This document shows, piece after piece, positions 4,743-37,757 of a stretch of DNA of 45,255 nt. Position numbers and translations under genes: made by a program. This stretch comes from a virus, in IMG/VR virus record IMGVR_UViG_3300022562_000962, positions 1-45,255 of that record. One strand, written 5' to 3'. Position 1 is the first letter of the stretch. Every line of letters starts with the position of its first letter. The notes beneath the pieces were generated by a model. The model saw only the letters and a program-made list of their open reading frames with translations, had not been told where the DNA came from and made no database searches.

Positions 4743-5735
4743 GTGGCGATCCTTACCACTGCGACCACCAACTTCAACAACACCGTCACTGCGCTGATCC
4801 GTCGGCAGATCGATGAGAATCTGCGCAACTCGACTCGTTACCTTGCGGGTGGTGATCCTGTTCGGGGCACCATCATCAAGGGCACGAACCTGATCCGGCA
4901 TATCGCCTACGCGGACATGTCGGTGACGACCAACGCCCATACCGTCACGCCGGGTACGACCCCATGGCTCACGGAAGGCAGCAAGCCTACCGAGGAAGCC
5001 ATGGCGATCTACTACGAGGAGTACGGGGCCAATCAGGCAGGCCGGACCCTCCAGATTTCCGACGTGGCACTTGCCGAGAGCCCGCACGAGCTGATGGCGG
5101 TCGCCGCAGAGCGCGTGGCCACCAACGCTGGGCAGACCGTGGACCTGTGGTCCGGCGAGACGCTGCATGCGGGCACCGCCCGGGTGCTGTACTCGGGCAC
5201 GGCCACCTCGCGGGCGACCGTGGCGGCAACCCACAACCTGACGGCGGCGAACGTCCGTGAGGCCGTAGCGGTTCTGAAGACCGCCAACGTCCCGACCTTC
5301 GCGGACGGGATGTACCGCGCTTTCATCAACCCGATGATCGCGCACGACCTGATGGCCGAAGCGGCTGCAGGCGGATGGCTCGACGTGGCTCGCTACGCGG
5401 CTCCCGACATGATCCTCTCCGGAGAGATCGGTCGGTTCGCGGGCGTCCGCTTCATCGAGACCAACGTCGCCAACCTGTTCGCTGACACGGGTGTCGGCGC
5501 AACGGTGGACGTGTACTCGACGTTCTTCTTCGGACCGGGTGCATGGGCTTTCGGTGATCTCCAGTCCATTCGGGCCTACATGGTCTCCCCCGGTGGCGAC
5601 CATCAGGATCCGCTGGCGCAGGCGGCAGTCGTCGGCTGGAAGGCGATGTTCGGAGCGAAGCTCCTGACGAACACCGGCAGCGGTGATCGCTATCTCCGGT
5701 ACGAGTCGGCCTCCAGCATCGGCGCGAACACCTAA
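4743..5735 (+). CDS. Major capsid protein, N4-gp56-like
   Basis: A 330-aa protein with the overall pattern of the N4-gp56 family of HK97-fold capsid proteins: an early segment with a conserved Gly-Asp-Pro-Val (GGDPVRGTIIKG), a central YEEYGANQAGRTLQISDVALAESP stretch equivalent to the family's 'YG..i.iSD' signature, a middle domain with FINPMIAHDL, and a C-terminal domain with FGPGAWAFGDL. It forms the icosahedral shell. Start GTG at 4743 is preceded by GAGG about 10 nt upstream. It follows the scaffold gene after 61 bp and is followed by a strong hairpin that may limit read-through. The family assignment was made by eye. Confidence 0.88.
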   Translation: MAILTTATTNFNNTVTALIRRQIDENLRNSTRYLAGGDPVRGTIIKGTNLIRHIAYADMSVTTNAHTVTPGTTPWLTEGSKPTEEAMAIYYEEYGANQAGRTLQISDVALAESPHELMAVAAERVATNAGQTVDLWSGETLHAGTARVLYSGTATSRATVAATHNLTAANVREAVAVLKTANVPTFADGMYRAFINPMIAHDLMAEAAAGGWLDVARYAAPDMILSGEIGRFAGVRFIETNVANLFADTGVGATVDVYSTFFFGPGAWAFGDLQSIRAYMVSPGGDHQDPLAQAAVVGWKAMFGAKLLTNTGSGDRYLRYESASSIGANT

Positions 5736-19825: not shown

Positions 19826-20058
19826 GCGTGATCGAGGACCTGCGGAATGCTGCCCAAGCTGAGGGTCAGCACTGGGAGTTGGGGGATGCTGTGGCCCGAA
19901 GGCTGAATGGCGACCCTACACCCGAGCGGGTGTTCGCAGCCGTGAAGCTGGCTGGTCGCAGTGACGACCTTGCCAATCGCATGAGTCGCCACTTCCGGTC
20001 ACAGGAAGAGAAGTCGAAGGCCAAGGCCCCCGCACGCAAGGCTAAGGCGAAGGCTTAG
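19822..20058 (+). CDS. Small protein with Lys/Ala-rich tail
   Basis: A 78-aa protein. The first ~58 residues look like a small helical domain (MSVIEDLRNAAQAEGQHWELGDAVARRL...), followed by a basic tail KSKAKAPARKAKAKA of the histone-H1-like or DNA-binding type. It is the last gene of the rightward block, and its 3' end overlaps the convergent helicase gene by 17 bp. No family recognised. Confidence 0.75.
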   Translation: MSVIEDLRNAAQAEGQHWELGDAVARRLNGDPTPERVFAAVKLAGRSDDLANRMSRHFRSQEEKSKAKAPARKAKAKA

Positions 20059-21343
20059 TCTCTTCGACCTTGCGCACGGTGCCGTCGGCCATGACGGTTA
20101 CCTTCCCGTCACCGATCAGGCCCTTCAGGACATTCCGCACTTCCATTTCCCCGAAGTAGACATCGCCCTCGGACAGCAGGTCCGACATCTGGTGCGGTGT
20201 TGCCGGGGCGACCGACAGCAGGTCCATGATCCGCTCGGGCAGGGGCGTGACCTGTCCGATCACCACCCGCTCTGATGCGAAGGTAACGCCGGTCGGCTGC
20301 CAGTCCATCGTCATGTAGAGGTCAGGACTGCGTGGTCCGATGTTCGACTTCCGGTGCTTCAGCACAAGGTGCGCACCCTTGGAGTCGGGCTCACGATTCT
20401 CCCGCAGCTCGAAGGCGTTGCGGGCACTGTTCCACTTGTAGACCGAGCCGTATGGCTTGGCCGCACCCTTCGACGCTGCCTTCATGTCGGCACCGGCAAC
20501 GTGGTCGAGGGCCAGCACCGACGTGTTCAGGCCACGCAGTGCCCGGAAGAACCGGATGGCTGTCTCGCTGGCGTCGGTCCCGTCCCGTGCGCTGGACATG
20601 GCCATGCCCACGCTGTCGATGATCACCAGTCCGATCTTCTCTTCGGCGACGTAGCGGGCCAACTGTGTGACCCGATCCTCGATGGGCTTGACCAACGAGG
20701 CGTAGCGGATGGACGGGTCGTCCTGCAGGACGCGCAGCCCCCCGGCCACGGCCTGCACCCGGCCTGCGATGTCGGTCTCGTCCGTCTCCCAGTCGAGGTA
20801 CAGGACCTCGGACTGGCGGACCTTGCGGCCCATCCATGGCACGCCCATCTGCACGGACACGGCCAGCGCAGAGGCGAGGATGCTCTTCCCCACACCACCG
20901 GCCCCGTACAGGATGGTGGGCTTGCCCATGGGGATGATGTTCTCCACCAGCCAGAGGGTGGGCTTGATCTTGGCTTGTGGGTCCAAGCGAACCACGCCGA
21001 CCGGAGAGTTCTCCGCGTCGATCACGCGCTGCGCCACCTCTTCCAGCACGGCGCTGAAGTCGATGGAGGATGCCCCAGCAGGGGCAGGGATCAAGCGCGT
21101 GAGGGCATTGGCGTAGGACATGCGGCTGCTGTCACTGAGCAGCCATACCTCGGCGTTGAGCACTCGGTCGGAGCCGGGGATCCGTCGAGCTGTGTCGATG
21201 GTGCTGGACGTGGAGAGCAGGGCCAGCGGGGAGCCCCCGCGTGACCGCAACTGGCTGACCTCAATGGTCAGGAATGCCTCGTCCACCTCATCGCTGAGGG
21301 CGTAGACGTAGCCCATCCCGGTGGGCAGAAACGTGCTCTTCAC
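20042..21343 (-). CDS. RepA-like hexameric helicase (RecA-fold ATPase)
   Basis: A 433-aa protein. Residues about 120-340 form a RecA-fold ATPase of the RepA/AAA_25 type: Walker A GAGGVGKS (147-154), the 'vLYLDWETDE' strand with its acidic residue, Walker B-like IGLVIIDSVGMA, and a later ALDHVAG strand. The N-terminal ~110 residues are specific to this protein and the C-terminal ~70 residues look like a winged helix (MSDLLSEGDVYFGEMEVRNVLKGLI). It probably unwinds the phage replication fork together with the primase in the same operon. The GTG start overlaps the stop of the upstream 41-aa gene. No separate helicase loader was seen. Confidence 0.82.
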   Translation of the reverse strand: MKSTFLPTGMGYVYALSDEVDEAFLTIEVSQLRSRGGSPLALLSTSSTIDTARRIPGSDRVLNAEVWLLSDSSRMSYANALTRLIPAPAGASSIDFSAVLEEVAQRVIDAENSPVGVVRLDPQAKIKPTLWLVENIIPMGKPTILYGAGGVGKSILASALAVSVQMGVPWMGRKVRQSEVLYLDWETDETDIAGRVQAVAGGLRVLQDDPSIRYASLVKPIEDRVTQLARYVAEEKIGLVIIDSVGMAMSSARDGTDASETAIRFFRALRGLNTSVLALDHVAGADMKAASKGAAKPYGSVYKWNSARNAFELRENREPDSKGAHLVLKHRKSNIGPRSPDLYMTMDWQPTGVTFASERVVIGQVTPLPERIMDLLSVAPATPHQMSDLLSEGDVYFGEMEVRNVLKGLIGDGKVTVMADGTVRKVEETKPSP

Positions 21344-21649: not shown

Positions 21650-21915
21650 GCCGGGGGCTCTTCCCACATCGCTCCGCATCGACAGACCCAGACATGATCG
21701 TGCGTGGTTTGATAACGGTGGTATTCCTCAGGTCCCGGCCACTGGCTGCCGCCCTGTCCGCTCCCACGCTTGTGCACGGGATGGCAGGGTGCGGCACCGC
21801 AGCGGTTGTTGGTTCCAACGAAGGTGTAGTCGCAGGGTCCAACGGGAGCGAAGCGCACGCGATCTCCCTGCGGGATGCTGTCCGCACCCTCGGTGGGCTG
21901 ATGGCTGCTACACAT
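21646..21915 (-). CDS. Small putative zinc-binding protein (89 aa)
   Basis: An 89-aa protein with Cys/His pairs: NNRCGAAPCHPVH in the middle and HVWVCRCGAMW near the C-terminus. These could form one zinc site. GGAAGGA precedes the ATG. It overlaps the primase gene by 8 bp and the next gene by 4 bp. Unknown family; a DNA- or protein-binding adaptor is possible. Confidence 0.65.
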   Translation of the reverse strand: MCSSHQPTEGADSIPQGDRVRFAPVGPCDYTFVGTNNRCGAAPCHPVHKRGSGQGGSQWPGPEEYHRYQTTHDHVWVCRCGAMWEEPPA

Positions 21916-22825
21916 GGTTCATCCTTCCGAGCATCACGGAGCCAACGCCATGGCCACCCCCGTTCAGCTCACAGTGGGGCGCTCCGCAGAACACCCGCTC
22001 GTCGTCCTTGAAGATCGTCAGGGACTGGTGCGCGTCCTCGTGGCAGGGGCATCTGACCGTACCACCCGGACGAGGGTTGGGCACTCCCCATGCCGCAAGG
22101 ACCTCACAAGCACTGGGGGTAGTCCCAAGGTAGTCCCGCTTCCATGCGCGGTAGAAGTTCTCGGCGACCCGGGGGTAGCTGCTGTGTGACCGGAAGCTGT
22201 CGGCGAACTGGGTGGCGATCCCAATATCCGTAGGCTTCCATGTCCGCAACATGTCATGGACATGACGTGAGTGATACCCGTCCGGCGTGTACGCTTCGTA
22301 TACCTGTTGCGTCTTGTGATGTGGGAGCCCGGGCAGCCGGAGTGCACCGCACGCAAGGTCGGAAGTCCCGACCTTCGGGAAGACCTCGACCTTCGGGTCA
22401 CGCAACAGGTCATCATCAACTGCGTGGAGTCCTGCCTTGATGACGTTCCGGGGCAGGCCAAGGCCCTTTCGCTCGGCCAGCCCGATCCATAGGTGGGCCC
22501 CGCGCCGGGACTCCACCAGCAGGGACCAGATGCCCTCGCGGTACAGGACGCGCTGGACCTCAGCCGCGATCTGCCGCCCATCGTCCCGGTCCACGTCAAG
22601 GGCACCGACATGGGTCATGCCCATGGCATCCGCCATGTAGGTGCTGATCGGATAGTGGTGGTCGTAAGCCCGGCGCACCACGTCCACGGTCAGGCGCTCG
22701 CGCACCACCCCGCTGGCGTTGACGACGTAGACATCCTCGCGTGCGGCGAAGTGTGCGATGAAGAGGTCCAGCTCCCAGTCAGGAAGATTCAGCACGGAAC
22801 ACCGCCAGTGCATCCTTGCAGACAC
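21908..22825 (-). CDS. Archaeo-eukaryotic-type primase with C-terminal zinc finger
   Basis: A 305-aa protein. The N-terminal part shows the three AEP primase motifs: LDVD (D77, D79) for metal, SRRGAHLW (S106, H111) for nucleotide, and KVEVFPK (about 145-151). The C-terminus has a compact zinc site, CPCH (C259, C261, H262) and C280...C285, similar to a shortened CHC2 finger. It should make primers for phage replication and may extend them. The GTG start at 22825 overlaps the upstream gene by 47 bp; an ATG at 22813 is an alternative. A hairpin (22355-22375) lies inside the gene. No separate polymerase was found in the genome. Confidence 0.8.
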   Translation of the reverse strand: MSARMHWRCSVLNLPDWELDLFIAHFAAREDVYVVNASGVVRERLTVDVVRRAYDHHYPISTYMADAMGMTHVGALDVDRDDGRQIAAEVQRVLYREGIWSLLVESRRGAHLWIGLAERKGLGLPRNVIKAGLHAVDDDLLRDPKVEVFPKVGTSDLACGALRLPGLPHHKTQQVYEAYTPDGYHSRHVHDMLRTWKPTDIGIATQFADSFRSHSSYPRVAENFYRAWKRDYLGTTPSACEVLAAWGVPNPRPGGTVRCPCHEDAHQSLTIFKDDERVFCGAPHCELNGGGHGVGSVMLGRMNHV

Positions 22826-23141
22826 GGCATCCGCCGGTCCGGTATCGGTAGTCGAGGGTCTTGCTCAACAGATGGCCGGGCGTCCCGCACTTCACACAGC
22901 GCCACTGCTTGCCCTCGGGTTGGGCAGCCGGTGGCGTGAAGGCGACAGCCCGGTACTCCAGCGTGTGGCCGTCGGAGCTGAGGCGATCCTCGATGGTGTA
23001 GCCAAGGCTGGCAGCGTCAGCCCGAACCTCACGCACCCGCCGGGTGGCCTCAACGCCGCCGACCATGACCAGATCGTGGCGGGAAACCCAGTTAGGCGCA
23101 CGCTTCAGGAGGAGCTGCCATACCTGCGAACGGTTGCTCAT
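22779..23141 (-). CDS. Winged-helix plus zinc-ribbon protein
   Basis: A 120-aa protein. Residues 1-60 look like a winged helix (SQVWQLLLKRAPNWVSRHDLVMVGGVEATRRVREVRADAASLGYTIEDR). The C-terminal third has a zinc ribbon (CVKCGTPGH ... CRVC). It lies between the Rad52-like and primase genes and overlaps both. A DNA-binding role in replication initiation or recombination is likely; the specific function is unknown. Confidence 0.7.
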   Translation of the reverse strand: MSNRSQVWQLLLKRAPNWVSRHDLVMVGGVEATRRVREVRADAASLGYTIEDRLSSDGHTLEYRAVAFTPPAAQPEGKQWRCVKCGTPGHLLSKTLDYRYRTGGCRVCKDALAVFRAESS

Positions 23142-23836
23142 CGCTTGAACGGTTCCTTCTCGTCACAGCCGGGGACCGGACAGGCACGGAAGGCGTTGTA
23201 GCGCCGACCCGTCTTCTGGCTCACGCCAGCCGGGACCGTCTTGACCTCTTCGTGAATGGGACAGATCCAGCCACTGTCGTCCACGACCTCGGGCTCGGCC
23301 TTGGGCTCACTGTTGCCCTCGATCTTCTCCCGCACGTTCTGTGTGGGCTTCGCCTTGGCAGGCTCGGCGGCGGGCACGGCGTCGTCGCGCTCGTCGTACA
23401 GGTCACGGGCGATGCCCCACTGCACGGCGGCACGCTTGAACGCATCCGAGTGCGCACCCTTGTCGGGCTCGATGCTGGACGGGATACCGACATCCCACTT
23501 CCAGATCCACTCGGCGTTGTCGCCACGGGCAACGAGGATGCCGATGCCGCAGCGCACGGCTCCGCTCGGCAGGTTCTCGAAGGTGGACTGCCAGCAGCCG
23601 GGACCGACCACGGAATCCAGCCGGTCCTGAACGAAGCGGGCGGTGACGTAGGACAGCATCAGGGGATGCCCGTCCCGCAGCACCGGCGTCCCGCCCTTGC
23701 TCAGGGCCTTGCGCTGGTGGACCTCTTCCTTGGGAGTGGCAGTGCCCAGTGCGATGAGGGCTTCCTCTCCTGCTGCCGCATTGTCGATGGCAACGGGAGT
23801 CTCAGCCTTCCCCTCACTCTTGGTGGCGGTGGTCAT
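23138..23836 (-). CDS. Rad52-like single-strand annealing protein with zinc finger
   Basis: A 232-aa protein. Residues about 55-155 carry Rad52/Rad22-type features: a YVTARFVQDRLDSVVGPGCWQ segment and the signature KGAHSDAFKRAAVQWGIARDLY. This domain anneals complementary single strands in recombination. A low-complexity linker follows and the C-terminus has a zinc finger (CPIHEE ... CPVPGC). AGGAGA precedes the ATG. The Cas4/RecB-like nuclease is adjacent, so the two probably form an exonuclease-annealase pair. Confidence 0.85.
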   Translation of the reverse strand: MTTATKSEGKAETPVAIDNAAAGEEALIALGTATPKEEVHQRKALSKGGTPVLRDGHPLMLSYVTARFVQDRLDSVVGPGCWQSTFENLPSGAVRCGIGILVARGDNAEWIWKWDVGIPSSIEPDKGAHSDAFKRAAVQWGIARDLYDERDDAVPAAEPAKAKPTQNVREKIEGNSEPKAEPEVVDDSGWICPIHEEVKTVPAGVSQKTGRRYNAFRACPVPGCDEKEPFKR

Positions 23837-23845
23837 GGTGTTCTC

Positions 23846-24658
23846 CTATGCAGAGCCTGAGATCGACTCCGTGATCAACCCCTCGATGGATTCGTTGTTG
23901 CGGTGCAGGAACAGGGCGAAGGTCAGGGACCCGACGAACGCTGCCCACAGCTCCGGCGTGGGCGCAATCTCGACCAACTCCCACGATGTGGGCCCAAGGT
24001 GCAGGATGGCCATGCCGTCGAGGTTGCGCAGCAACTCGGTCATGGCATTGTCTACGACATCGTTCTCGCCAACCCACTGGGCCATGGAGTAGGCCACCAA
24101 CTGGACCGCATGGTCCAGATAGATGCCCTTGGAGGTCTTGATGTCAGTCATGAGCCGACGGCCACGGTGCAGGAAGATGCGGTCGAAGGACCCGGCGTAG
24201 CCCAGTGAGTGGAACACCTGTCGCTCCGACGCCAGCGTCTGGGCCCCGGTCTGCTTCACGAAGCCATAGAACTGGGTGACGTAGGAGCGGATCTCTTCGT
24301 CCTCGATGTCGTCCGGGGAGATCCCGGCGTCCACCGCCTCGTGCACGGCGGTGCCACGCTCGCCCGCCTGATCCCGCTCGATGGTGGCGGCTGCCCGCAT
24401 GAAGGACATGGCCTCGGCCAGCACGTTGGCCTCAAGGTTCCGCTCACGGGGCTTCCGATCACGGGCGAGGATGGCGTCCACCTCGGCCCGCTCGTTGATC
24501 GCACGCTCGATCACCTTGGTGAGGGCGTACTGGTGAAGGGGGTGCGCCATCCCTACCAGACGGCGCACGCTGGTGACGCTCAGGTACTTCTCTTTCCCCC
24601 ACTGGTAGAAGCGAAGCCCGGAGTCGGGATCGGTGAAGGCATTGGGTGGCTCGGCCAT
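23846..24658 (-). CDS. PD-(D/E)XK nuclease, Cas4/RecB-like
   Basis: A 270-aa protein with the ordered motifs of RecB/Cas4-type nucleases: GTAVHE (H106), ERQVFHS (E145), GSFDRI (D159), TDIKTSKG (D172, K174) and QLVAY (Q186, Y190). No iron-sulphur Cys cluster is visible, so it is nearer to phage RecB-like exonucleases than to classic Cas4. It would generate single strands for the adjacent Rad52-like protein. Its start overlaps the stop of the upstream gene by one base. Confidence 0.85.
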   Translation of the reverse strand: MAEPPNAFTDPDSGLRFYQWGKEKYLSVTSVRRLVGMAHPLHQYALTKVIERAINERAEVDAILARDRKPRERNLEANVLAEAMSFMRAAATIERDQAGERGTAVHEAVDAGISPDDIEDEEIRSYVTQFYGFVKQTGAQTLASERQVFHSLGYAGSFDRIFLHRGRRLMTDIKTSKGIYLDHAVQLVAYSMAQWVGENDVVDNAMTELLRNLDGMAILHLGPTSWELVEIAPTPELWAAFVGSLTFALFLHRNNESIEGLITESISGSA

Positions 24659-28285: not shown

Positions 28286-28600
28286 GCAATGTACGCGAAT
28301 GTGACAGGGCGAAACGGACTTCCAATCACCGGATCTGACGGAGAGATCTCTCGACACCCCCATGCCGTCACCAGAAGACAGTGTTGTGACCGGAAGCCAC
28401 CCTTGCGCTCACCTCGTCGAGGAGTGGGGTACTAGCGAGCACTAGGACCTCTGTCGCATCGGGCAATCCTCGTGCACGGGGACCCAAAGCGGAAACCGTG
28501 TGGAGGCAAGAACTTCGAGCCCAAGTTCGAGGAGCTGTGAGCTGGAGCTGCGAGCTAGCTGCACCATTGTTGGGCCTGTTGCCGTGGCCTCAAGGGTGGT
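28286..28600. other. Non-coding stretch between early promoter and terminators
   Basis: About 315 bp without a credible gene. It contains GAGCT-rich short repeats around 28531-28560 (CTGTGAGCTGGAGCTGCGAGCTAGCTG) and small palindromes, but no tRNA or clear iterons. A replication origin or upstream control region is possible; nothing in it proves this. Confidence 0.4.
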
Positions 28601-28680
28601 AGCCCCGCTCTACCATCCACGGACCCCCGGGTCCCGTAACTACGTTCGGGACCGGGGGTCCTAGTGATGGGAGCGGGGCT
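28601..28680. terminator. Large nested hairpin, likely bidirectional terminator
   Basis: AGCCCCGCTC (28601-28610) pairs with GAGCGGGGCT (28671-28680); inside, 28621-28636 pairs with 28648-28662 with a single bulge around the loop taactacgtt. A very stable structure downstream of the VWA gene. Confidence 0.6.
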
Positions 28681-28716
28681 GGGCTGGGATCAGGAAACTG
28701 TGGGCTGAAGGGTGGT

Positions 28717-28746
28717 AGCCCTTTCATCCTTCGGATAGAAAGGGCT
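28717..28746. terminator. Hairpin, second of three downstream of the VWA gene
   Basis: AGCCCTTTC plus ATCC (28717-28729) pairs with GGAT and GAAAGGGCT (28733-28746) around a TTC loop, with one unpaired base. Because AAGGGCT/AGCCCTT ends provide A/T stretches, it may work in either direction. Confidence 0.55.
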
Positions 28747-28779
28747 CGGCTCGGGACATCACGGTGGGCACAAAGAAAG

Positions 28780-28821
28780 CCCCCCTCTCCCTCCCAGTAA
28801 TGGGAGGTCGGGAGAGGGGGG
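28780..28821 (-). terminator. Terminator of the MoxR/VWA operon
   Basis: A long GC-rich hairpin with outer stem CCCCCCTCTCC (28780-28790) against GGAGAGGGGGG (28811-28821) and inner CTCCCA/TGGGAG around GTAA. In the leftward transcript it is followed by CTTTCTTTGTG, a partial U-tract. It lies 45 nt after the VWA gene stop. Confidence 0.75.
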
Positions 28822-28865
28822 CGGCCCGACGCAGCCTTCAGGCCACGCCGGGCATCCGCCGACTT

Positions 28866-31205
28866 TCAGTCGGCGAGGTGGGCCGCCAGCACATCCATCA
28901 GGTCCATCGCCATCCGGTCCCAATCCCCGCGCCACTCCACGACCGCATCATGGCCGTACAGAGCCGCTTGGATTGCGCTCAGGCCGCCCTCGACCGCAAC
29001 GCTGATGACGCTCACGCCCAGCGACCGGACCCGCTCGACGCAGGACCGCACAAGATCCTCAGTCTCGTTGGGCTGGCCATCGGAGATGACCACCAGCACA
29101 GACTGCTCGCGCTCGCCACTCTCCGGAGCGATCACGGCTTCGCCGAGAGCCGCGATCACCGCACCGTCGCGGTTCCCGCCACCGTCGGACATCGTTCCGA
29201 TGTAGCCCTGATCGACGTAGCCGTCCCGGCTGTCCCACAGGTCGTAGACCTGTGTGTGGAACTGGGTGTTGTGAGCCCAAACGTGGACCCTTGCCTTGCC
29301 GGTCCGAAGGACCGCTTCGGCAAGGTTGGCCGTGACCTGAATGGCCGTCGGAATCGCGTAGGACATGGATCCGGAGTTGTCCACCAGAAGGTGGACATCC
29401 AGCCGATCCCGTTCCAGCGACTCGCGCCGGGTGAACACCTCTGTGCTGCCGGTCCGCATGCGGTAGGCACGCTGCGGGCTGAAGCGTCCGCCGCGTGAGG
29501 GCTGCGGCCTTGCCGCAGACCGCCGCTGTGAGACGAAGGCTTGGGCGAGGGCACGGACAGTATCACTGTCCGTGGGAACCGGCGAGGGCTGCTGGCTCAT
29601 CGTCGTCTTACTGACGACGACCCGCAGCGGGGCACCGTCAATCTCGACTTCGATCACGTTGCTCTCAGTTCGTCTCGAAGAGACGGACTGGTTGCCCCAG
29701 TGATCGGACAGCCCAGCGTCGGGGTCCCGCGTTCCCGCGTTCCCGTCACCGTCAACGTCTCCGACGTGGACGGGAAGCGGCTTGTTCAGCGCATCCTCGT
29801 TCGTCTCGACCTCAATCTCCTCTGGAGATTGCTCGTCGTCGGTGTCCAGCGGCTTGCCACGGCTACCGCCGTGAGCATCCGGCTTGTGGTCGGAACCTTC
29901 GCCACCTTCAGGTGGCGGCTCGTCGTCACCGCCGGGACCGGGACCCTCACCCGTGGTGCCACCTTGGTGGCACTTGCAGCCGGGGTCCGTGCAGCCGGGC
30001 TTGACCGCAGCCGCAGCGAACGCAGCTACGCTGCAGCCGCAGGTGCAGGGCTCGGCACCATCGGTGCCGTCGGACTTGCCGCCACCGTCCCCGCCATCGG
30101 GTCCTTCGGACCCGCCGTCGTCGCCGCCGTCGCCACCCTCGTCACCACCGGGTCCTTCGGACCCGCCGGGGCCGCTGATGTCGTCGCCGCCGGGACCCTC
30201 TGGGTCCTCGTCGTCGCCGGTCGGCTTGGGATCTTCGATCTCACCGGCAGGCTTCGGAACGAAGCCCATGTCGAGGATGTGGTCGCAAGCTTCCTTCAGT
30301 GCCTGAAGGAAAGCATCGCCGGTCCTCGAAGAGTTGGCCGACGGCGTACCGCCATGGCGGTACTTCCAAGCGACCCACCAGTCCCGCTCATCCTCTACGG
30401 CCTTCCCACCACCGAAGGTGGTGTAGTCGAGGTAGCGAGTCGCGGTGAGCACGAACGCAGCCGCCTCATCCCCGTCGGCGTACAGCCGAGTGACCGCCTT
30501 CGGCGGGAAAGCCTGAGCCACCCACCACAGGGTTACCGGGAATACTTCCCGGTACACGGGGTAAGTGACCCCAAGCCGGTACTCCAGCCGAACGTCCTGA
30601 AGGACGTTGATGATCCGCCGGACCGCAGCCTGTCCGATGGTCACAGCAGCATTGCTGCTGCTTCCGAGCACACTGAGCAGTTCGTGCCAGCGAAGCTGGC
30701 CGACCCAGCGGTCCTCGCGGATGTGCCCGGATTCGTGGACGGCCATGCCCACGAGGGCAGCCAGCCTGATGTCGAAGGGAACCTTCGACAGGTACACGGG
30801 CTGACTGCTGATCCAGACCTTGTGTGCCTGCAACGAAGTTGCAGCCACCATGTTCTGGCCGTGGTCGCCGAACATCACGACGTACCCTCTCTCTTCGTTC
30901 CGAAGAGAGTTGAGCAGTGAGGTCAGCCCATCACGGATCGGCGCACCGACAGCCTTCAGGCTGGCGGTGAGGTCGGCGGTGTCCCAGCCTGTGGCTGGAT
31001 CACGCTGCATGCTCACCGCGTTCGCCGCCTTCGCGAGCCCGCCGTGTTGACCGACTAGTCGGTCAATCTGAGCCCAGTCCTCGAATGGGATTCCCCATTC
31101 GGCCCACAGCCGGGTCAGCCCAGCCGGAACCGTAGGTTCCGTGCCGACCGGGAATGTGGCCGGAAAGTCAGCCGCTGTAAGCGGCTTGTTCGTCGTCTTT
31201 GCCAT
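28866..31205 (-). CDS. VWA-domain protein with HExxH motif (CobT-like partner of the MoxR ATPase)
   Basis: A 779-aa protein. Residues about 100-310 form an N-terminal domain with HESGH (H157, E158, H161), as in the metallopeptidase-like domains that precede VWA modules in MoxR-associated proteins. Residues about 320-520 are an acidic Gly/Pro/Asp-rich linker that contains a Cys cluster (CTCGCS ... CTDPGCKCH). The C-terminal ~175 residues are a VWA domain with the MIDAS motif DNSGS (609-613), GTMSDGG and ISDG (D709). Such proteins work with MoxR/CobS AAA+ ATPases in metal insertion or protein remodelling; the substrate here is unknown. ATG 31205 is chosen over TTG 31244 because GAAGGGA lies upstream and 31244 overlaps the upstream gene. 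The gene is studded with hairpins. Confidence 0.85.
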   Translation of the reverse strand: MAKTTNKPLTAADFPATFPVGTEPTVPAGLTRLWAEWGIPFEDWAQIDRLVGQHGGLAKAANAVSMQRDPATGWDTADLTASLKAVGAPIRDGLTSLLNSLRNEERGYVVMFGDHGQNMVAATSLQAHKVWISSQPVYLSKVPFDIRLAALVGMAVHESGHIREDRWVGQLRWHELLSVLGSSSNAAVTIGQAAVRRIINVLQDVRLEYRLGVTYPVYREVFPVTLWWVAQAFPPKAVTRLYADGDEAAAFVLTATRYLDYTTFGGGKAVEDERDWWVAWKYRHGGTPSANSSRTGDAFLQALKEACDHILDMGFVPKPAGEIEDPKPTGDDEDPEGPGGDDISGPGGSEGPGGDEGGDGGDDGGSEGPDGGDGGGKSDGTDGAEPCTCGCSVAAFAAAAVKPGCTDPGCKCHQGGTTGEGPGPGGDDEPPPEGGEGSDHKPDAHGGSRGKPLDTDDEQSPEEIEVETNEDALNKPLPVHVGDVDGDGNAGTRDPDAGLSDHWGNQSVSSRRTESNVIEVEIDGAPLRVVVSKTTMSQQPSPVPTDSDTVRALAQAFVSQRRSAARPQPSRGGRFSPQRAYRMRTGSTEVFTRRESLERDRLDVHLLVDNSGSMSYAIPTAIQVTANLAEAVLRTGKARVHVWAHNTQFHTQVYDLWDSRDGYVDQGYIGTMSDGGGNRDGAVIAALGEAVIAPESGEREQSVLVVISDGQPNETEDLVRSCVERVRSLGVSVISVAVEGGLSAIQAALYGHDAVVEWRGDWDRMAMDLMDVLAAHLAD

Positions 31206-31237
31206 CGTCGTGTCCCTTCTCGAATCCGAAGGATTCG

Positions 31238-32710
31238 CTACCAAGTGATTCCCACGAAGTGGGAAAGCACCAGTTGCCGCTCACTGCGCGCCCCGCCCTC
31301 GCCGCTGAACGATCGAATGATCGTTGCCTCGACGGCTTCAGCCGCAGGCTGACCGGAAACAATGTCCTCTGCTGCTGAAAGCAGCAGCCGGGTGCTGACC
31401 CCACCATGGTGGGCACCCTTCCGACTTGCATCTCTCACGAGAGATGCAAAGGTCGCCAGCTTCTCAGCCGTAGGCTGATCGAGGCCGGTTCGGGTCACAA
31501 GCACCTTCGTCTCCTGAGCCTTGCTCAGGTAGTCAAACTCGATCCACTTGTGGATCCGGTCCCTGAACGCGGGGTCCAGCGGCTCCGTGTGGACGTATGC
31601 AGCCCCGAGGTTCATCGTCATGGCGATCTGAACCTTCGGGTTCAGGAGCACCGTCTTGCCGGTGATCGGGATCGTTACCGATCCCGCCGCCGTGAGCACA
31701 GGCAGCAGCGCCTGAGCCGCAGGGCCATTGGCCCTGTTCGCCTCGTCCAGCAGCAGGATCCGCTCTCCCGGCTCTGTAAGAGCCGTGTACAGGGTGGAAG
31801 GCTCCCAACGGAGCGTGTTTGCTTCCGTAGGAAGCATCATGCCGAACCAGTCCGATGGCTCCCTGACTGCTGCGCAGTCAAAGCGCACGACCTCGACGCC
31901 TTCCTCGTCACCGAGGAAGTACACCGCTTCGGTCTTGCCGGTCCCTGTGGGACCGACGAGGCAGACTGCCGTCGGGCGCTGGGTGCGCTGGTGGGTGAGC
32001 CTTGCCGCCTTCCAGTCCCTACGGGACTGAGCACTGACCACGATGTCGCCGAACCACCGCTTCGCGGTGCCCTTGCGACCACGCCGCTTCCCGCCACCTA
32101 GGGTGGCGGTGACGGTCACTTCCACGCTGTCCTCGTCGTCGTTCTCCGGACTGTCGTCCGGAGTCGGAGATGTGCTCACCGAAGGTGAGGGAGTGGGGGC
32201 AACCGGGCTTGGCGTCACCGAAGGTGACGGGGCAGCCGGGGTGCTGAAGGGGCTGGTCCCAGAGGGCACTACCGAAGGTAGCGACCACGGGGTGTTGGCA
32301 GCCTTCCGGACCGTGTGGATCACTACGTTGGGGCGCACCGGACTTGTCCGGCGTGTGCCAACCCACAGGAGATCGGCGTGTGTCCGCCAATCCTTGTGCA
32401 GTTTCAGCCCAAGGGGCTGAAGCAGCCGGTTGACGTTCGTCACGATCCCCGAGGGGATCGAGGCCGGAAGCGAGTTGGGCGTGGACAGCACATACACGGC
32501 GCTCGCCCACTCCCCAGCCGGAAGGCTGGGGTCCGGAACGAAGTCCGTCCGAAGGACGAGCTGACCGGCGGTCTTGCGGTCACGAATGCTGAGGGTACAC
32601 ACCGTAGGTGTGTTGGCCAGCACCGTGATGCTGCCCGGCAGACCCGAAGGTCTGCCCGACCCTAGGTTGTGCCGCAGAGCGGCAATGGATGGAGTGTTGC
32701 TGTAAGCCAA
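31238..32710 (-). CDS. MoxR/CobS-type AAA+ ATPase
   Basis: A 490-aa protein. The first ~150 residues form a domain of unknown type, followed by a Pro/Ser/Thr-rich acidic linker (about 150-200). The AAA+ module then has Walker A GPTGTGKT (253-260), Walker B ILLLDEANR (from about 318), a sensor-like AMTMNLG, and an arginine-finger region (PAFRDRIHKWIEFDYL), which is typical of MoxR/CobS proteins. It should power the VWA partner encoded 32 bp downstream. The start is uncertain: TTG 32710 is preferred because AAAGGGA lies 10 nt upstream, and TTG 32737 is an alternative that lacks a ribosome site. The preferred start codon lies in the loop and stem of hairpin 32702-32718. Confidence 0.85.
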   Translation of the reverse strand: MAYSNTPSIAALRHNLGSGRPSGLPGSITVLANTPTVCTLSIRDRKTAGQLVLRTDFVPDPSLPAGEWASAVYVLSTPNSLPASIPSGIVTNVNRLLQPLGLKLHKDWRTHADLLWVGTRRTSPVRPNVVIHTVRKAANTPWSLPSVVPSGTSPFSTPAAPSPSVTPSPVAPTPSPSVSTSPTPDDSPENDDEDSVEVTVTATLGGGKRRGRKGTAKRWFGDIVVSAQSRRDWKAARLTHQRTQRPTAVCLVGPTGTGKTEAVYFLGDEEGVEVVRFDCAAVREPSDWFGMMLPTEANTLRWEPSTLYTALTEPGERILLLDEANRANGPAAQALLPVLTAAGSVTIPITGKTVLLNPKVQIAMTMNLGAAYVHTEPLDPAFRDRIHKWIEFDYLSKAQETKVLVTRTGLDQPTAEKLATFASLVRDASRKGAHHGGVSTRLLLSAAEDIVSGQPAAEAVEATIIRSFSGEGGARSERQLVLSHFVGITW

Positions 32711-32782
32711 GGGCTTACCGTCCCTTTCTCCCGGCAAGGCCGGGACTGCTGTGCCGCCTCGTGGTCCGAAGCGACTGCCGCC

Positions 32783-32811
32783 ATCCTAGGACCCTTGCAA
32801 GGTGCTGTCAA
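32783..32811 (-). promoter_or_regulatory. Strong putative promoter of the MoxR/VWA operon
   Basis: On the minus strand a perfect TTGACA (32806-32811), a 17-bp spacer and TAGGAT (32783-32788). Transcription would start near 32776, giving a leader of about 65 nt that holds two hairpins (32729-32745 and 32702-32718). The best promoter match in the window, and separate from the early operon. Confidence 0.7.
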
Positions 32812-33308
32812 GGGCTATCCCGTAGGGATGGCAAGATTCGGCAAGGGTCGGTCCCTGCCGTGCGAACCTACCCTGCGGCAGCGCAGTCCGTGCACATGAC
32901 GCCGCCTGTAGGTGGGCGGGCAAGACCCGACCCCGCAGGGGTCGAGGGGCATGTCTGCACCTTGTGGCCGGAAGATAGGCCGGGTTGGTCCGAACGATAC
33001 CGCCGGACCGGGGGGTACTTCCCATTAGACTTACCCGGCACCCCCGCCAGTTTCCGAACTCGTGGCCGGGCGCTGTGAATGCTACCCCTCTGATAGCGGG
33101 ACCCCCCCTCAGCTTCCATGACGGGTCGGGTTCATTCTGTACTCGGGTTTAGACTCGGGTTCAATACTTGACACGGGTCTCTATACTTAGTTTCACACGC
33201 CCCGAGGGGCCGGGGGGACCCGAGAGGGGACCCACGGACCCGAGGACCCCCCGGGAGATCTATCTAATAACCCCCGGGTCGCCACCGAAACGCGAGAGGA
33301 CCACACCC
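32812..33308. other. Divergent intergenic region
   Basis: About 500 bp without a credible gene, between the leftward MoxR operon and the rightward late block. It continues the hairpin theme (ATCCC-GTA-GGGAT at 32817-32829, CGACCCC-GCA-GGGGTCG at 32928-32944, CTGCG-GCAG-CGCAG at 32873-32886, GCCCC-GA-GGGGC at 33199-33210) and holds a cluster of CGGGT repeats near 33122-33187. A control region for both transcription directions, and possibly an origin. Confidence 0.6.
33122..33191 (+). promoter_or_regulatory. CGGGT repeats, each followed by a -10-like box
   Basis: CGGGT occurs at 33122, 33127, 33144, 33156 and 33174. Three copies are followed 1-3 nt later by TAGACT (33150-33155), AATACT (33163-33168) and TATACT (33182-33187). 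A TTGACA sits at 33168-33173 but only 8 bp before TATACT, so it is not a standard promoter. The array may be an operator or a set of phage-specific promoters for the rightward genes. Confidence 0.4.
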
Positions 33309-33826: not shown

Positions 33827-34288
33827 ATGGCAGCCACCAACCGGCCCTGCAGCATCTGCGCGGGCGAGCGCAAGACCGTCGTCAACACGCTCCTCGCCGC
33901 CGGACGCTCTCCCCACTTCATCGAGGGTGAGATGCGCAAGGTCGGATCCCCGACCAAGGCCGAGACCGTCAGGCGGCACCTCGCCCGCTGCCTCAACGGC
34001 CAGCGGCCCGGGACCGGGACCATCGTCCCCACCGGCGCGAAGGGGGACTTCGCCCAGATGGTTCGAGACGAGGCCGTTCGCCTGCTCGAAGCTGGTGAGC
34101 TGAAGGTCAAGACCAACGACGGGCTGTGGGCCCAAGGTCTGATCGACAAGCGGGCCGAGAAGAAGGCTGACCGCGATCTCCTGCTCAATCTCACCCGGCT
34201 CATGGTCGGGGCCGCACCACCTCCGGAGCTGATCGAGGGGGAATGGACGGAGGTCAATGAGGACACCCCCCTCCGGCTTCCCGGCTGA
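33827..34288 (+). CDS. Putative terminase small subunit
   Basis: A 153-aa protein directly upstream of the large terminase, overlapping it by 32 bp. The N-terminus has CSICAGE (CxxC) followed by a helix-turn-helix-like segment (VVNTLLAAGRSPHFIEGEMRKVGSPTKAETVRRHLARCL), and the rest is helical, ending in an acidic tail. Small terminases recognise pac sites and stimulate the large subunit; the assignment rests on position and the HTH-like region. The start is uncertain: an in-frame ATG at 33722 would add 35 low-complexity residues. The ATG at 33827 lies in a 7-bp hairpin (CCATCGG/CCGATGG). Confidence 0.65.
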   Translation: MAATNRPCSICAGERKTVVNTLLAAGRSPHFIEGEMRKVGSPTKAETVRRHLARCLNGQRPGTGTIVPTGAKGDFAQMVRDEAVRLLEAGELKVKTNDGLWAQGLIDKRAEKKADRDLLLNLTRLMVGAAPPPELIEGEWTEVNEDTPLRLPG

Positions 34289-35822
34289 CCTCGCCCGCAG
34301 CCGCTGGGACATCGAGTTCTTCGCGTCCCGCTTCCTCGGCGTGGAGGCCCACCCCGGCCAGATCCGCTTCTGGAAGGCCGCCCTCATGCGGCGGCCCAAC
34401 CTGTGGCAGGCGGCCTACCTGACCCTCGCCGTCAGCGCCGGGAACCGGGCAGGCAAGACCCTCTCGCTGGCGATCCTGATCCTGCACAACACCCTCTACA
34501 AGATGGGCCTGCCCCCGCCTGACCCCACCAACGAGAACTCGCTGCGGGCATGGCACAAGGTCAGCTACGACTGGTTCCATTTCGGGATCCAGCAGGAGAC
34601 AGCCGAACTCGTCTTCCACGAGCTGTCCCAGCTCCTCGCCGGGATCCATGAGGCTCAGAAGGGGCGGGGTTGCCCCTTGGTCGATGATCTGGGGCCCGAG
34701 GTCATCGACGTGACCCGCAAGGATCGGGGCGTGTACCCGTGGGTCGTGATCAACCCCGCGCTGGGCGGCGGTCAGATCCACTTCCGCACCACCGCCGAGA
34801 AGGCCATCGGCTCGCTGGGCAAGGACATGCACGGCATCAGCTTCGATGAGTGCGCCTTCGAGCCACAGTTGGAGTTCGTGGTCAACGAGGTCCTGCACCT
34901 CCGACGCCTCGGCACCGGCGGCCAGCTCTTCCTGATCAGCACTGCCACCGAGGGCCTGACCAGCTTCAGTGACCTGTGGTACGAAGGTGATCCCGACTCG
35001 CCGGATCGCATGCCGGGCCATTACTCCCTGCGAATCAGCACCCGCGAGAACATCGGCTTCGGTCTCGATCAGGACATGTTCGAGCGGATCGTGGCCTCCA
35101 TGCCCGAGTACCTGATCCCGCAGAACATCGACGGTGGCTTCATCGAGTCACGTTCCGCGTTCTTCGGGTCACAGGCCGTGGACCTTGCCTTCACCGATGA
35201 CTTCCCCGAGCAGACCCTCCCGCGTTCCGGTCACCGCTATGCACAGGGTGTGGATCCGGCGCTCACCTACGATTCGAGCTGGTCGGTGATCCTCGATATG
35301 ACCCATCCCACCAAGGTGCTGGGGGTCAAGATCGCCAAGCGGTCCGGGCGGCAGACGGCCAACAGCGTGGCCGGGCTCATTCACGAGGGCCACCGTGACT
35401 ACACCGCACGCGGAGCGCAGTGCACCACCGCCCTCGACTCGACCGGCTTCGGAGGTGCCGTCTTCAAGGATCTCCTTGCCGGGATCCATCCGTTCCGCGC
35501 CGTGGAGTTCGGCGGAACGCGGGGGAAGAAACTCAAGCTGCTTCTGGATCTCAAGGGAATGCTGGAGAAGGGCCAGCTCCGTTTCCCACGTTCCGGTCAC
35601 TGGCTGGGGCTTCGTCGGCAGCTCTTGGGATACCGTTTGGATGACCGCAAGCTGGAGACGGATGCGGTCATGGCACTGGCCGTTGCCTGTAATGTCGTGA
35701 AGCGAAACGCCGCCGGAGTGGCCCGCGATACGACGCTGGACTATTTCGGAACGGGTCCGCAGCGTGTATCCTCGCACCGACGCGAGATCCTGCTCGGGCG
35801 TGTTGGGATCGGAGGAGAATAG
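34257..35822 (+). CDS. Terminase large subunit
   Basis: A 521-aa protein with the layout of phage large terminases. The N-terminal ATPase has Walker A AGNRAGKT (61-68) and Walker B with D197/E198 (ISFDEC). The C-terminal RNase H-fold nuclease has Asp residues in VDPALTYDSSWSV, ALDSTGFGG and the late TDAVMALAVA. It pumps DNA into the prohead and cuts it. GGAGG precedes the ATG, which overlaps the small-subunit gene. The next gene, the portal, starts one base after its stop, which is the standard order. Confidence 0.93.
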   Translation: MRTPPSGFPADLARSRWDIEFFASRFLGVEAHPGQIRFWKAALMRRPNLWQAAYLTLAVSAGNRAGKTLSLAILILHNTLYKMGLPPPDPTNENSLRAWHKVSYDWFHFGIQQETAELVFHELSQLLAGIHEAQKGRGCPLVDDLGPEVIDVTRKDRGVYPWVVINPALGGGQIHFRTTAEKAIGSLGKDMHGISFDECAFEPQLEFVVNEVLHLRRLGTGGQLFLISTATEGLTSFSDLWYEGDPDSPDRMPGHYSLRISTRENIGFGLDQDMFERIVASMPEYLIPQNIDGGFIESRSAFFGSQAVDLAFTDDFPEQTLPRSGHRYAQGVDPALTYDSSWSVILDMTHPTKVLGVKIAKRSGRQTANSVAGLIHEGHRDYTARGAQCTTALDSTGFGGAVFKDLLAGIHPFRAVEFGGTRGKKLKLLLDLKGMLEKGQLRFPRSGHWLGLRRQLLGYRLDDRKLETDAVMALAVACNVVKRNAAGVARDTTLDYFGTGPQRVSSHRREILLGRVGIGGE

Positions 35823-37757
35823 GTGGCGCTCGCGCGACTCGACATCGACTCGGTGCTGAAGTACGCAGACGAGGAAGATGCGGATCTCCTGAAGGAGATT
35901 GGTGACCGCAAGGCGTCGGTCCAAACGGAGATGGACAACTTCGCCCTGCTCTGTGATCGGTTCGACAACCTCTACTTCCCGGCAGACGTGCTCGACCACG
36001 CTGGGGCCAGCCACTGGGCCAACCACCCATCGGCCACCACGCCCGGCAAGAGCCACATCAGCATCAACACCCCGCCGGTCTACGTTGACATCCCGGCCAG
36101 TCTGCAGTCGGTGCCGCCGGTCGAGAACATGGTGGCCCTTATCCCCGAGGACTCTGCCCGCCAGATCGCGGCCATGACCGAACGTCTCTACTTCGCGTGG
36201 AAGGACGAAGAGAGCTTTGAGCTGAAGGCCCATCAGGCATGTGTGGTGAAGGGCCTCTACGGGCGCACCGCTGCCAAGGTCTACTGGGACGACCAGCTCG
36301 GGCGACCGACCCTGCGCGTGGTGGATCAGCCCCGCAACCTGTACCTCGGTTGGGGGACCAGCGACTACACCCGTCTCGACTGGGCGCTCTACACCTACCG
36401 CCAGAGCGCAGAGGGTGTGTACGAGGACTGGGGCCTGAGGGTCGAGCGCACCGGCGAGGACGGCATGGCCGCCCCCATCGTGCTGCGCCCCAGCGTCGAG
36501 TCCGGCACCGTGCGCTGGCTGTACGACATCGGGCTGGAGGTTGAGGTCTTCGATTACTGGTATCGGCGTCCCAAGGGCGACGGCAGCCGCGACCGCTACG
36601 GGCGCATCCAGATGGAGACGTGGAACTGCATCTTCGTCGGGAATATCAAGGTCAAGGAAGAGCGCCACGCTGAGTACGACGGGATGATTCCCTACGTCCC
36701 GCTCTTCAACACCTACATTCCCGGTGTTCCTGATGGACGCCCCGAGCTGTACGACGTTGAGAGCCTGCTGCGTGAGAAGGATGAGCGCCTGACGCAGGGC
36801 TCCCAGCTCCTCAACAAGGCCACTGAGGGACAGCTCTTCCAGCTCGTCGGCCCGGAAGCCCCAGACGTGATCCCGGCCAATGCCATCCCCAAGCCCAACC
36901 GCATGGCGGCTCCCGGCCCCGGCAACCGGGTCGAGAAGATCGACCCGTGGATGCCCGAGTTCCAGCTTGAAGCCTTCCTGTCCCGGCTCGACCGCGAGAT
37001 CGCGGACGTGACCGGCCTCAACGACCTGCTGCGCGGGCTGGCTCCGGCCTCGGTGCTGTCCTCCTCGAAGGCCATCAACGCGCTGGTCGCCAACTACGAG
37101 GCGCGTATCCGCATCAAGCGCGATCTCTTCTATGTCTGGAGGCGCGAGGTCTGGGACATGGTGTCCAAGATATGGGCCTCGAAGACCCCGGCCCTGCGGG
37201 ACGTGCTGATCGGTGCCGCCCGCCTCGATGTCGAGGCTCCGTCGCTCACGCCGCGTGACGACATGGAGACGGCAGCCATGGCGTCCAACCTCGTCAACTC
37301 CAAGCTGTGGAGCTTGCAGCGTGGCATGGATCGGGTCGGCGTGGACGATCCGGAGTCTGAGCTGGACATCATTCGCCACGAGCGCACCGATGCCAGCATC
37401 TTCCCGGCAGACGTGCAGGTCATGGCCCAGCTCATGCTCCTCCTGCGTCAGCTCGGCTTCGCGCCGCCTGAGCAGGCCCAGATTCAGGCGGCCCAGCAGA
37501 ACCAGTCGCTGGCCAATCTGCGCGGGCTGATGGGCGGCAACCGGGCCACCACCGCCATGAATGGTCCGGGCGAGCAGCCGCTGCTGCCGCCCGAGGCCAT
37601 GCCCGCCAACACACCCGAGGGGCAGCAGGTGGCGGGCCCGCCCCCGCCACCGCCGCCCGCTCCGGGTGGCACGCTCACCTCGCAGACCCTGACGCAGGGC
37701 GGTGAGGCCAGCAACCGCATCCTGAGCAATACGCCAGTCACGCCAGAGGGTCAGTAA
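35823..37757 (+). CDS. Portal protein
   Basis: A 644-aa protein immediately after the large terminase, as usual for portals. It has the mixed fold pattern of portals: an early acidic helical part, beta segments around YWDDQLGRPTLRVVDQPRNLYLGWG, a long clip/stem part (PNRMAAPGPGNRVEKIDPW) and helices with ALVANYEARIRIKRDLFYVWRREVWDM. The C-terminus (from about 580) is low-complexity Pro/Gln-rich. It forms the ring through which DNA passes. GTG start with GGAGGAG just upstream (inside the terminase end). Confidence 0.87.
   Translation: MALARLDIDSVLKYADEEDADLLKEIGDRKASVQTEMDNFALLCDRFDNLYFPADVLDHAGASHWANHPSATTPGKSHISINTPPVYVDIPASLQSVPPVENMVALIPEDSARQIAAMTERLYFAWKDEESFELKAHQACVVKGLYGRTAAKVYWDDQLGRPTLRVVDQPRNLYLGWGTSDYTRLDWALYTYRQSAEGVYEDWGLRVERTGEDGMAAPIVLRPSVESGTVRWLYDIGLEVEVFDYWYRRPKGDGSRDRYGRIQMETWNCIFVGNIKVKEERHAEYDGMIPYVPLFNTYIPGVPDGRPELYDVESLLREKDERLTQGSQLLNKATEGQLFQLVGPEAPDVIPANAIPKPNRMAAPGPGNRVEKIDPWMPEFQLEAFLSRLDREIADVTGLNDLLRGLAPASVLSSSKAINALVANYEARIRIKRDLFYVWRREVWDMVSKIWASKTPALRDVLIGAARLDVEAPSLTPRDDMETAAMASNLVNSKLWSLQRGMDRVGVDDPESELDIIRHERTDASIFPADVQVMAQLMLLLRQLGFAPPEQAQIQAAQQNQSLANLRGLMGGNRATTAMNGPGEQPLLPPEAMPANTPEGQQVAGPPPPPPPAPGGTLTSQTLTQGGEASNRILSNTPVTPEGQ

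Follow-up and report, generated by a model that had tools for sequence, protein, structure and literature searches.

Perfect inverted repeats inside functional protein-coding genes are known from nematomorph mitochondria, where they have been suggested to arise by template switching or repeat conversion and possibly to have a parasitic character (PMC6649704, Mikhailov et al. 2019). Here we describe a tract of perfect mini-hairpins in the IMG/VR viral record IMGVR_UViG_3300022562_000962, which overlies an operon of two genes encoding an AAA+ ATPase and a VWA protein. The analysed DNA is the entire record of 45,255 bases (the window, to whose numbering positions refer unless another contig is named), a metagenomic contig without a cultivated relative, whose gene content is that of a tailed phage.

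The coding palindromes of nematomorph mitochondrial genes are the closest precedent. Both systems place perfect inverted repeats in functional coding genes, show perfect-or-nothing identity, undergo paired changes that preserve perfection (few cases here), and are gained and lost patchily (PMC6649704). However, the nematomorph repeats are long (up to 284 bp) and belong to mitochondrial DNA, whereas the phage stems measure 6–17 bp (6–9 bp in genes), have loops of 2–4 nt, occur once per ~54 nt with a minimum spacing and a loop-sequence preference, and are confined to one tract of double-stranded DNA (dsDNA) phages, non-coding DNA included. The phage tract may work like the nematomorph palindromes, although we do not class it as one of them.

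Template switching is a documented route to arm-templated changes (PMC8794818, PMC8604942, PMC7202029). Quasipalindrome template-switch mutation in E. coli (PMC7202029), yeast (PMC8604942) and RNA genes (PMC8794818) is marked by arm homogenisation, spacer reversal and multi-base compensatory changes in single events, with which a few cases in the phage tracts are consistent; those events are rare and single, whereas the phage tracts comprise 66–108 hairpins kept near-perfect. Individual phage hairpins also resemble the hairpin promoters of the N4 virion RNA polymerase (RNAP), which have a short DNA stem and a 3-nt loop of G-N-A type with a sheared G:A pair, C-GNA-G being the stable loop type of these promoters (PMC4496689). 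The N4 hairpins tolerate variable stem bases if pairing is kept, and they form in supercoiled phage DNA, extruding at low superhelical density (PMC4496689). N4 has three such promoters, however, with conserved bases and upstream of genes (PMC4496689), whereas here dozens of hairpins lie inside genes and stem bases are not conserved. No RNAP match was obtained for the large virion-type open reading frames (ORFs) by hidden Markov model or phmmer searches, which a divergent form could escape. On these searches an N4-type virion RNAP was considered and rejected, a divergent one excepted. The stems differ in sequence and the hairpins run throughout genes, unlike N4 promoters with their conserved stem bases and position upstream of transcription starts. 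Rickettsia palindromic elements (RPE), as they are cited in PMC6649704, are likewise palindromes inside coding genes, but are described there as a repeated family of inserted elements, whereas the phage hairpins are nearly all distinct and encode conserved residues. No counterpart of the array organisation was found in the open-access literature and, as far as that literature shows, no tract of this kind would have been described before in phages or bacteria.

Hairpin density in the ATPase/VWA operon

Hairpins were counted as perfect stems with loops of 2–5 nt, without overlap unless stated. The tract extends from 29189 to 32745 and contains 66 hairpins with stems of 6–11 bp and loops of mostly 3 nt. 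Across 28857–32745, a recount gave 52 stems of at least 7 bp and 15 of exactly 6 bp, close to the ~51 and ~14 reported in a first-pass annotation of this DNA. The ATPase gene (31238–32737, minus strand, 499 residues, TTG start at 32737) carries 31 hairpins of at least 6 bp, and the VWA gene (28866–31244, minus strand, 792 residues) carries 34. Stems of at least 7 bp number 24 in the ATPase gene versus 0.8 in synonymous-codon shuffles, and 26 in the VWA gene versus 2.0; with overlapping hairpins counted, the values are 30 versus 1.2 and 39 versus 2.7, and the maxima over 300 shuffles are 5 and 12, respectively. Each of the kilobases from 29 to 33 kb contains 7–19 stems of at least 7 bp, compared with 0–2 per kb in the remaining 40 kb of the contig. 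Equal density elsewhere or in shuffles, the comparison put forward in the first-pass annotation, was not found (~0.5 stems per kb elsewhere; ~3 in shuffles). Its estimate that the density exceeds chance is borne out by both comparisons, and chance or GC content is ruled out as the cause.

Of the positions at which the encoded proteins are compatible with a 7-bp hairpin, ~21% are realised in the operon versus 0–2% in other genes. A saturation model, in which all compatible sites are taken, was discarded since only this fraction is used and the non-overlapping maximum is ~139 versus 65 present. Compatible positions in the operon are barely more numerous than in residue-shuffled proteins; thus, the hairpins owe their existence mainly to synonymous choice and to some extent to amino-acid accommodation. 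Separately, codon usage across 29180–32750 differs from that of the rest even outside the stems: GC content at third codon positions (GC3) is 0.77 versus 0.84, GCT, CTT, CCT and GAA are commoner, and the dinucleotide AT is depleted (0.83 versus 1.20).

The stem sequences are almost all distinct, the single exception being a 7-bp hairpin, CGGGTCCGAAGGACCCG, present at 30098 and 30149, in agreement with the initial view that this is not a repeat family. A dispersed repeat family (REP- or RPE-like) was ruled out, as the copies have no common sequence. The Walker A residues GPTGT are encoded by the hairpin cggtcccACAgggaccg at 31939–31955 (minus strand); the hairpin had been noted correctly, one base off at 31940–31956. 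Conserved protein code thus runs through hairpins, which are not inserted elements. Consistent with this, the AAA domain aligns to its homologues without insertions at the hairpins. Inserted or bypassed elements were rejected on these grounds and because hairpin lengths are not multiples of three.

The description of hairpins as running through the MoxR/VWA operon holds roughly, but the ends of the dense tract differ from the gene ends. At one side the tract ends within the VWA gene, whose end part (28876–29188), corresponding to the last 310 nt, is hairpin-free although synonymous choice would permit some; an isolated 8-bp hairpin with a GAA loop (28857–28875, minus strand) lies at the VWA stop codon. 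Beyond the other end are a perfect 7-bp hairpin with the loop TGC, or GCA on the plus strand (32928–32944, minus strand), and an 8-pair hairpin with one A.C mismatch, gccatcccTACgggatagc (32814–32832, minus strand), directly upstream of the −35 box. Both are outside the transcript, 5' of the predicted promoter.

Relatives with and without the tract

Relatives were found only through a terminase search, which gave 17. Single-protein or motif scans of viral contigs for close relatives of both proteins returned none, and the tract DNA has no similarity to known phages. Two relatives from other samples, IMGVR_UViG_3300047317_000371 (G018) and IMGVR_UViG_3300045119_000148 (G019), carry an equally dense tract; a search of genomes for close relatives of the G018 ATPase returned none. 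Their identity to the window phage is 57% for the terminase, 36% for the AAA protein and ~31% for the VWA protein (amino acids). Over ~8 kb, G018 contains 103 and G019 108 perfect stems of at least 6 bp, with background density elsewhere in both. Their tracts cover the homologous operon, neighbouring genes and non-coding DNA, so the property is not confined to one operon. In G018, stems of at least 7 bp again exceed shuffles (14 versus 0.7 in the ATPase gene and 18 versus 1.2 in the VWA gene). A third relative, G023, has the tract at the end of its contig, which stops inside it.

Two other phages, G010 and G024, share the overall genome plan and an ATPase homologue and lack the tract, as emerged from comparing homologous operons, a check suggested at first pass. 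Twelve phage or viral relatives of the operon proteins (~17–33% identity) show no hairpin excess, and a general property of the AAA/VWA family was rejected on these 12 together with G010 and G024. Since diverged relatives have the tract and others with the operon do not, it is no artefact, nor is it typical of this gene family. In this sample of metagenomic sequences (one contig and three relatives, from two lineages), the tract appears to be present in two diverged lineages and dispensable in others. Hairpin positions in the window and G018 coincide modestly, with 9 versus 3.9 expected in the AAA gene (p=0.006) and 6 versus 3.2 in the VWA gene (p=0.1). Contig ends near the tract were considered as evidence of a fixed genome end and dismissed, their positions and sequences being heterogeneous.

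Several further features of the relatives were observed. The G018 tract likewise has lower GC3, with GCT, CCT and GAA commoner. The AAA gene of G024 (L060, 7001–8275) shows a mild excess, with 4 stems of at least 7 bp versus 0.7 in shuffles; these have 4–5 nt loops without GNA preference and could be a remnant, terminators or a chance result. In G018 (L049, 6459–8699) and G019 (L051, 7521–9749), an in-frame TAG divides the VWA gene into two cistrons; a GAA-loop hairpin comes next, then an AGGAG-like site and GTG. The VWA ORF of the window is uninterrupted. A non-coding stretch at L049 3070–3960 in G018, also present in G019 and G023, is highly conserved among the three and contains the longest hairpins (stems of 12–17 bp), with places where overlapping palindromes have a rearranged look. 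It is a candidate origin or regulatory region.

G018 and G019 are 95% identical in the tract, and 94 hairpins have shared loop columns in their alignment. Among well-aligned hairpins, loops have a substitution rate of 4.4%, compared with 3.1% for gaps and 2.4% for stems, and most arms are still perfect between the two genomes despite loop drift. Seven compensated pairs, three of them transversions, were found in three hairpins, against an expectation of 0.13. At one site a block has switched partners: it reads GGAGTTGCT in G018, where its partner is the upstream arm, and GGCACCACT in G019, where its partner is the downstream arm, which changes two residues, Val-Ala to Thr-Thr. With G023 giving the direction, a double change from C.G to G.C and a loop change from GA to its reverse complement TC, both in a non-coding stretch, are derived in G019. 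In less reliably aligned parts, symmetrical insertions (CCC/GGG) are present on both arms. A few of these changes are consistent with template switching, namely the block at 5132/5140, the symmetrical CCC/GGG insertion and the GA to TC loop. Copying of one arm from the other would be expected to leave such paired, multi-base and block changes, as described for template switching (PMC8794818, PMC8604942).

Hairpin anatomy and origin of the tract

The commonest hairpin has a 7-bp stem and a 3-nt loop. Stems with 3-nt loops number 23, 6, 4 and 1 for 7, 8, 9 and 10 bp, respectively, a thinning approximately as expected from chance extension; with 2- or 4-nt loops the mode of stem length is 8 bp. 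Of the 66 hairpins of the window tract, 50 have a C-G closing pair, as do 71 of 103 in G018. Triloops are GNA or the complement TNC in 29 of 44 cases in the window (11% expected, p ~1e-17) and in 29 of 58 in G018 (11–12% expected, p ~1e-12). Spacing in the window tract averages 54 nt and is more even than random (coefficient of variation 0.46 versus 0.66, p=0.0002). There is a minimum spacing of ~8–10 nt: no edge-to-edge gap is shorter than 10 nt in the window tract, where 15 are expected, and none is shorter than 8 nt in the window, G018 or G019 tracts, with 12–13 expected in each. No helical-phase periodicity of spacing was detected in the window tract.

Perfect Watson-Crick stems are ~20-fold in excess over shuffles, whereas stems that contain a single G-U or a single A-C, counted without overlap, stay at background level. 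Perfect and non-overlapping single-mismatch stems number 66 versus 10 in the window, 103 versus 26 in G018 and 108 versus 27 in G019. Among the latter, G-U accounts for 2, 3 and 3 and A-C for 1, 2 and 5, respectively, so G-U is not preferred. The sense strand contains GNA and TNC loops at 9:20 in the window, 19:10 in G018 and 29:30 combined; a strand-specific loop preference, hinted at by the window alone (20 versus 9–10), was rejected because G018 is opposite. Strict Watson-Crick pairing, the lack of a G-U excess, strand-symmetric loops, hairpins in the non-coding DNA of relatives (with stems there of up to 12–17 bp) and tract ends that lie inside genes, independent of gene ends, favour a DNA-level structure on either strand over an mRNA structure. 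Of the two roles proposed at first pass, DNA hairpins and mRNA structure, the former is supported on this sequence evidence and the latter is not. Selection of the operon mRNA as a chain of local hairpins (for decay resistance, ribosome pacing or protein binding) is unlikely. The tract does approximately coincide with the transcript in the window, and sense-strand folding is much more stable than in synonymous shuffles (z ~ −12), but the antisense strand is nearly as extreme (z ~ −10) and the difference between them is unremarkable (z −1.6 and −0.7). Moreover, hairpins are absent from the final 310 nt of the coding sequence in this message, there are hairpins 5' of the promoter, and the tract matches no Rfam or known RNA family. 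Some caution is advisable with strong RNA-folding z-scores, since a DNA-level process can produce them.

Our preferred explanation for the tract, to which we give an about even chance, is a DNA-level array of mini-inverted repeats whose near-perfect state is maintained by hairpin-templated copying and filtered by protein function. Phage DNA that is single-stranded or negatively supercoiled would fold into hairpins. Occasionally, as this DNA is synthesised or recombines, one arm would be recopied from the other by short-range template switching, also called 'quasipalindrome correction'. The tract would be more often single-stranded, supercoiled or re-synthesised than the rest of the genome. Protein function would limit what is tolerated, leaving mostly 6–9 bp stems in genes, written largely through synonymous choice, and stems of up to 17 bp in the non-coding DNA of relatives. 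Several points weigh against such copying. The concerted changes rest on few events (three well-aligned hairpins, one block switch and several poorly aligned cases), and some of them could, in principle, have come about by selection for compensated pairs. Identity between G018 and G019 is 95% in the tract and 91–97% in neighbouring regions, which indicates no strong local hypermutation. The explanation does not account for the restriction of the process to one tract, and no gene exclusive to tract-bearing phages, as a trans-acting factor would be, was found by blastp. Finally, blind copying would not obviously yield the minimum spacing and the even distribution, which could reflect selection.

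Such selection is central to a more tentative explanation, in which the tract is a selected cis-acting DNA element. A 7–8 bp stem, a C-GNA-G type loop and a linker of at least 10 nt would form a unit read by a protein or by DNA geometry, with the stem sequence free since only structure is read. It might, for example, organise SSB or the phage annealing protein on single strands, prime replication, absorb negative supercoils, or act on the incoming genome, like the hairpin promoters of N4. In its favour are the evenness of spacing and the exclusion zone, both seen in three tracts, the strong loop and closing-pair preference, and the stem mode of 7 bp with 3-nt loops and 8 bp with 2- or 4-nt loops. 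Further points in favour are the retention of the tract in two diverged lineages, the modest positional coincidence in the AAA gene, and the location 1–4 kb upstream of the terminase genes; the phages concerned encode an AEP-like primase, an AAA_25 helicase and a Rad52-type annealing protein. However, the tract is missing in G010 and G024 despite their same genome plan, and hence dispensable; there is no candidate reader protein, and no N4-type RNA polymerase is recognised by sequence among the large virion-type ORFs. Some 70 promoters would make no sense, and stems are just ~25% less divergent than gaps. It is possible, if doubtful, that the tract represents a functional DNA-structure code, namely a kilobase-scale regular array of sequence-independent mini-hairpins over dsDNA phage genes, read by geometry, repaired arm from arm, and serving replication, genome entry or recombination. 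It is extremely improbable that the tract is a chance product of GC-rich DNA or an artefact of sequencing or assembly. The window is a metagenomic contig without a cultivated relative and the G023 contig ends inside the tract, but independent assemblies from other samples carry it, and in two of these 94 hairpins coincide in the alignment. Intact long ORFs and conserved motifs continue through the tract, and chance is excluded by the shuffles and the rest of the genome.

Two overlapping codes, protein and DNA hairpins, coexist over kilobases at extreme density and are found again in diverged phages. The tract would be a natural laboratory for hairpin-templated mutation, and would allow a test of whether template switching produces perfect inverted repeats in genes as parasitic by-products or whether they are a selected DNA structure.

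Genome and operon setting

On the minus strand, the ATPase gene precedes the VWA gene. The ATPase is MoxR/CbbQ/CobS-like (Pfam CbbQ_C/AAA_5) and the VWA protein is CoxE/CobT-like (Pfam VWA/VWA_CoxE), and phage homologues are annotated CobS/CobT. The operon encodes an AAA protein with Walker A/B motifs followed by a VWA protein with DxSxS, which is the arrangement of a CobS/CobT-like pair, and the two are ordinary phage CobS/CbbQ-like and CobT/CoxE-like proteins. Elsewhere, the window encodes a terminase (34257–35822), a portal (35823–37757), a major head protein (4743–5735), a Rad52-type annealing protein (23138–23836), an exonuclease (23846–24658), an AAA_25 helicase (20042–21343) and an AEP-TOTE-like primase (21908–22825).

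A sigma-70-like promoter of the operon is predicted, by consensus match only, at 32783–32811 (minus strand; TTGACA-17-TAGGAT). The region 32785–32860 contains an inverted repeat, GACCCTTGC ... GCAAGGGTC, that spans this promoter and is a possible operator, and the palindrome CCTTGCAAGG lies in the −35/−10 spacer. On the 3' side of the operon, a terminator-like inverted repeat with a T-rich tail (28765–28830, minus strand), which includes the hairpin at 28790–28807, was identified by eye and is not listed by the scan. Several long terminator-like inverted repeats are present downstream of the operon at 28300–28830, for example at ~28615–28660 and ~28718–28750.

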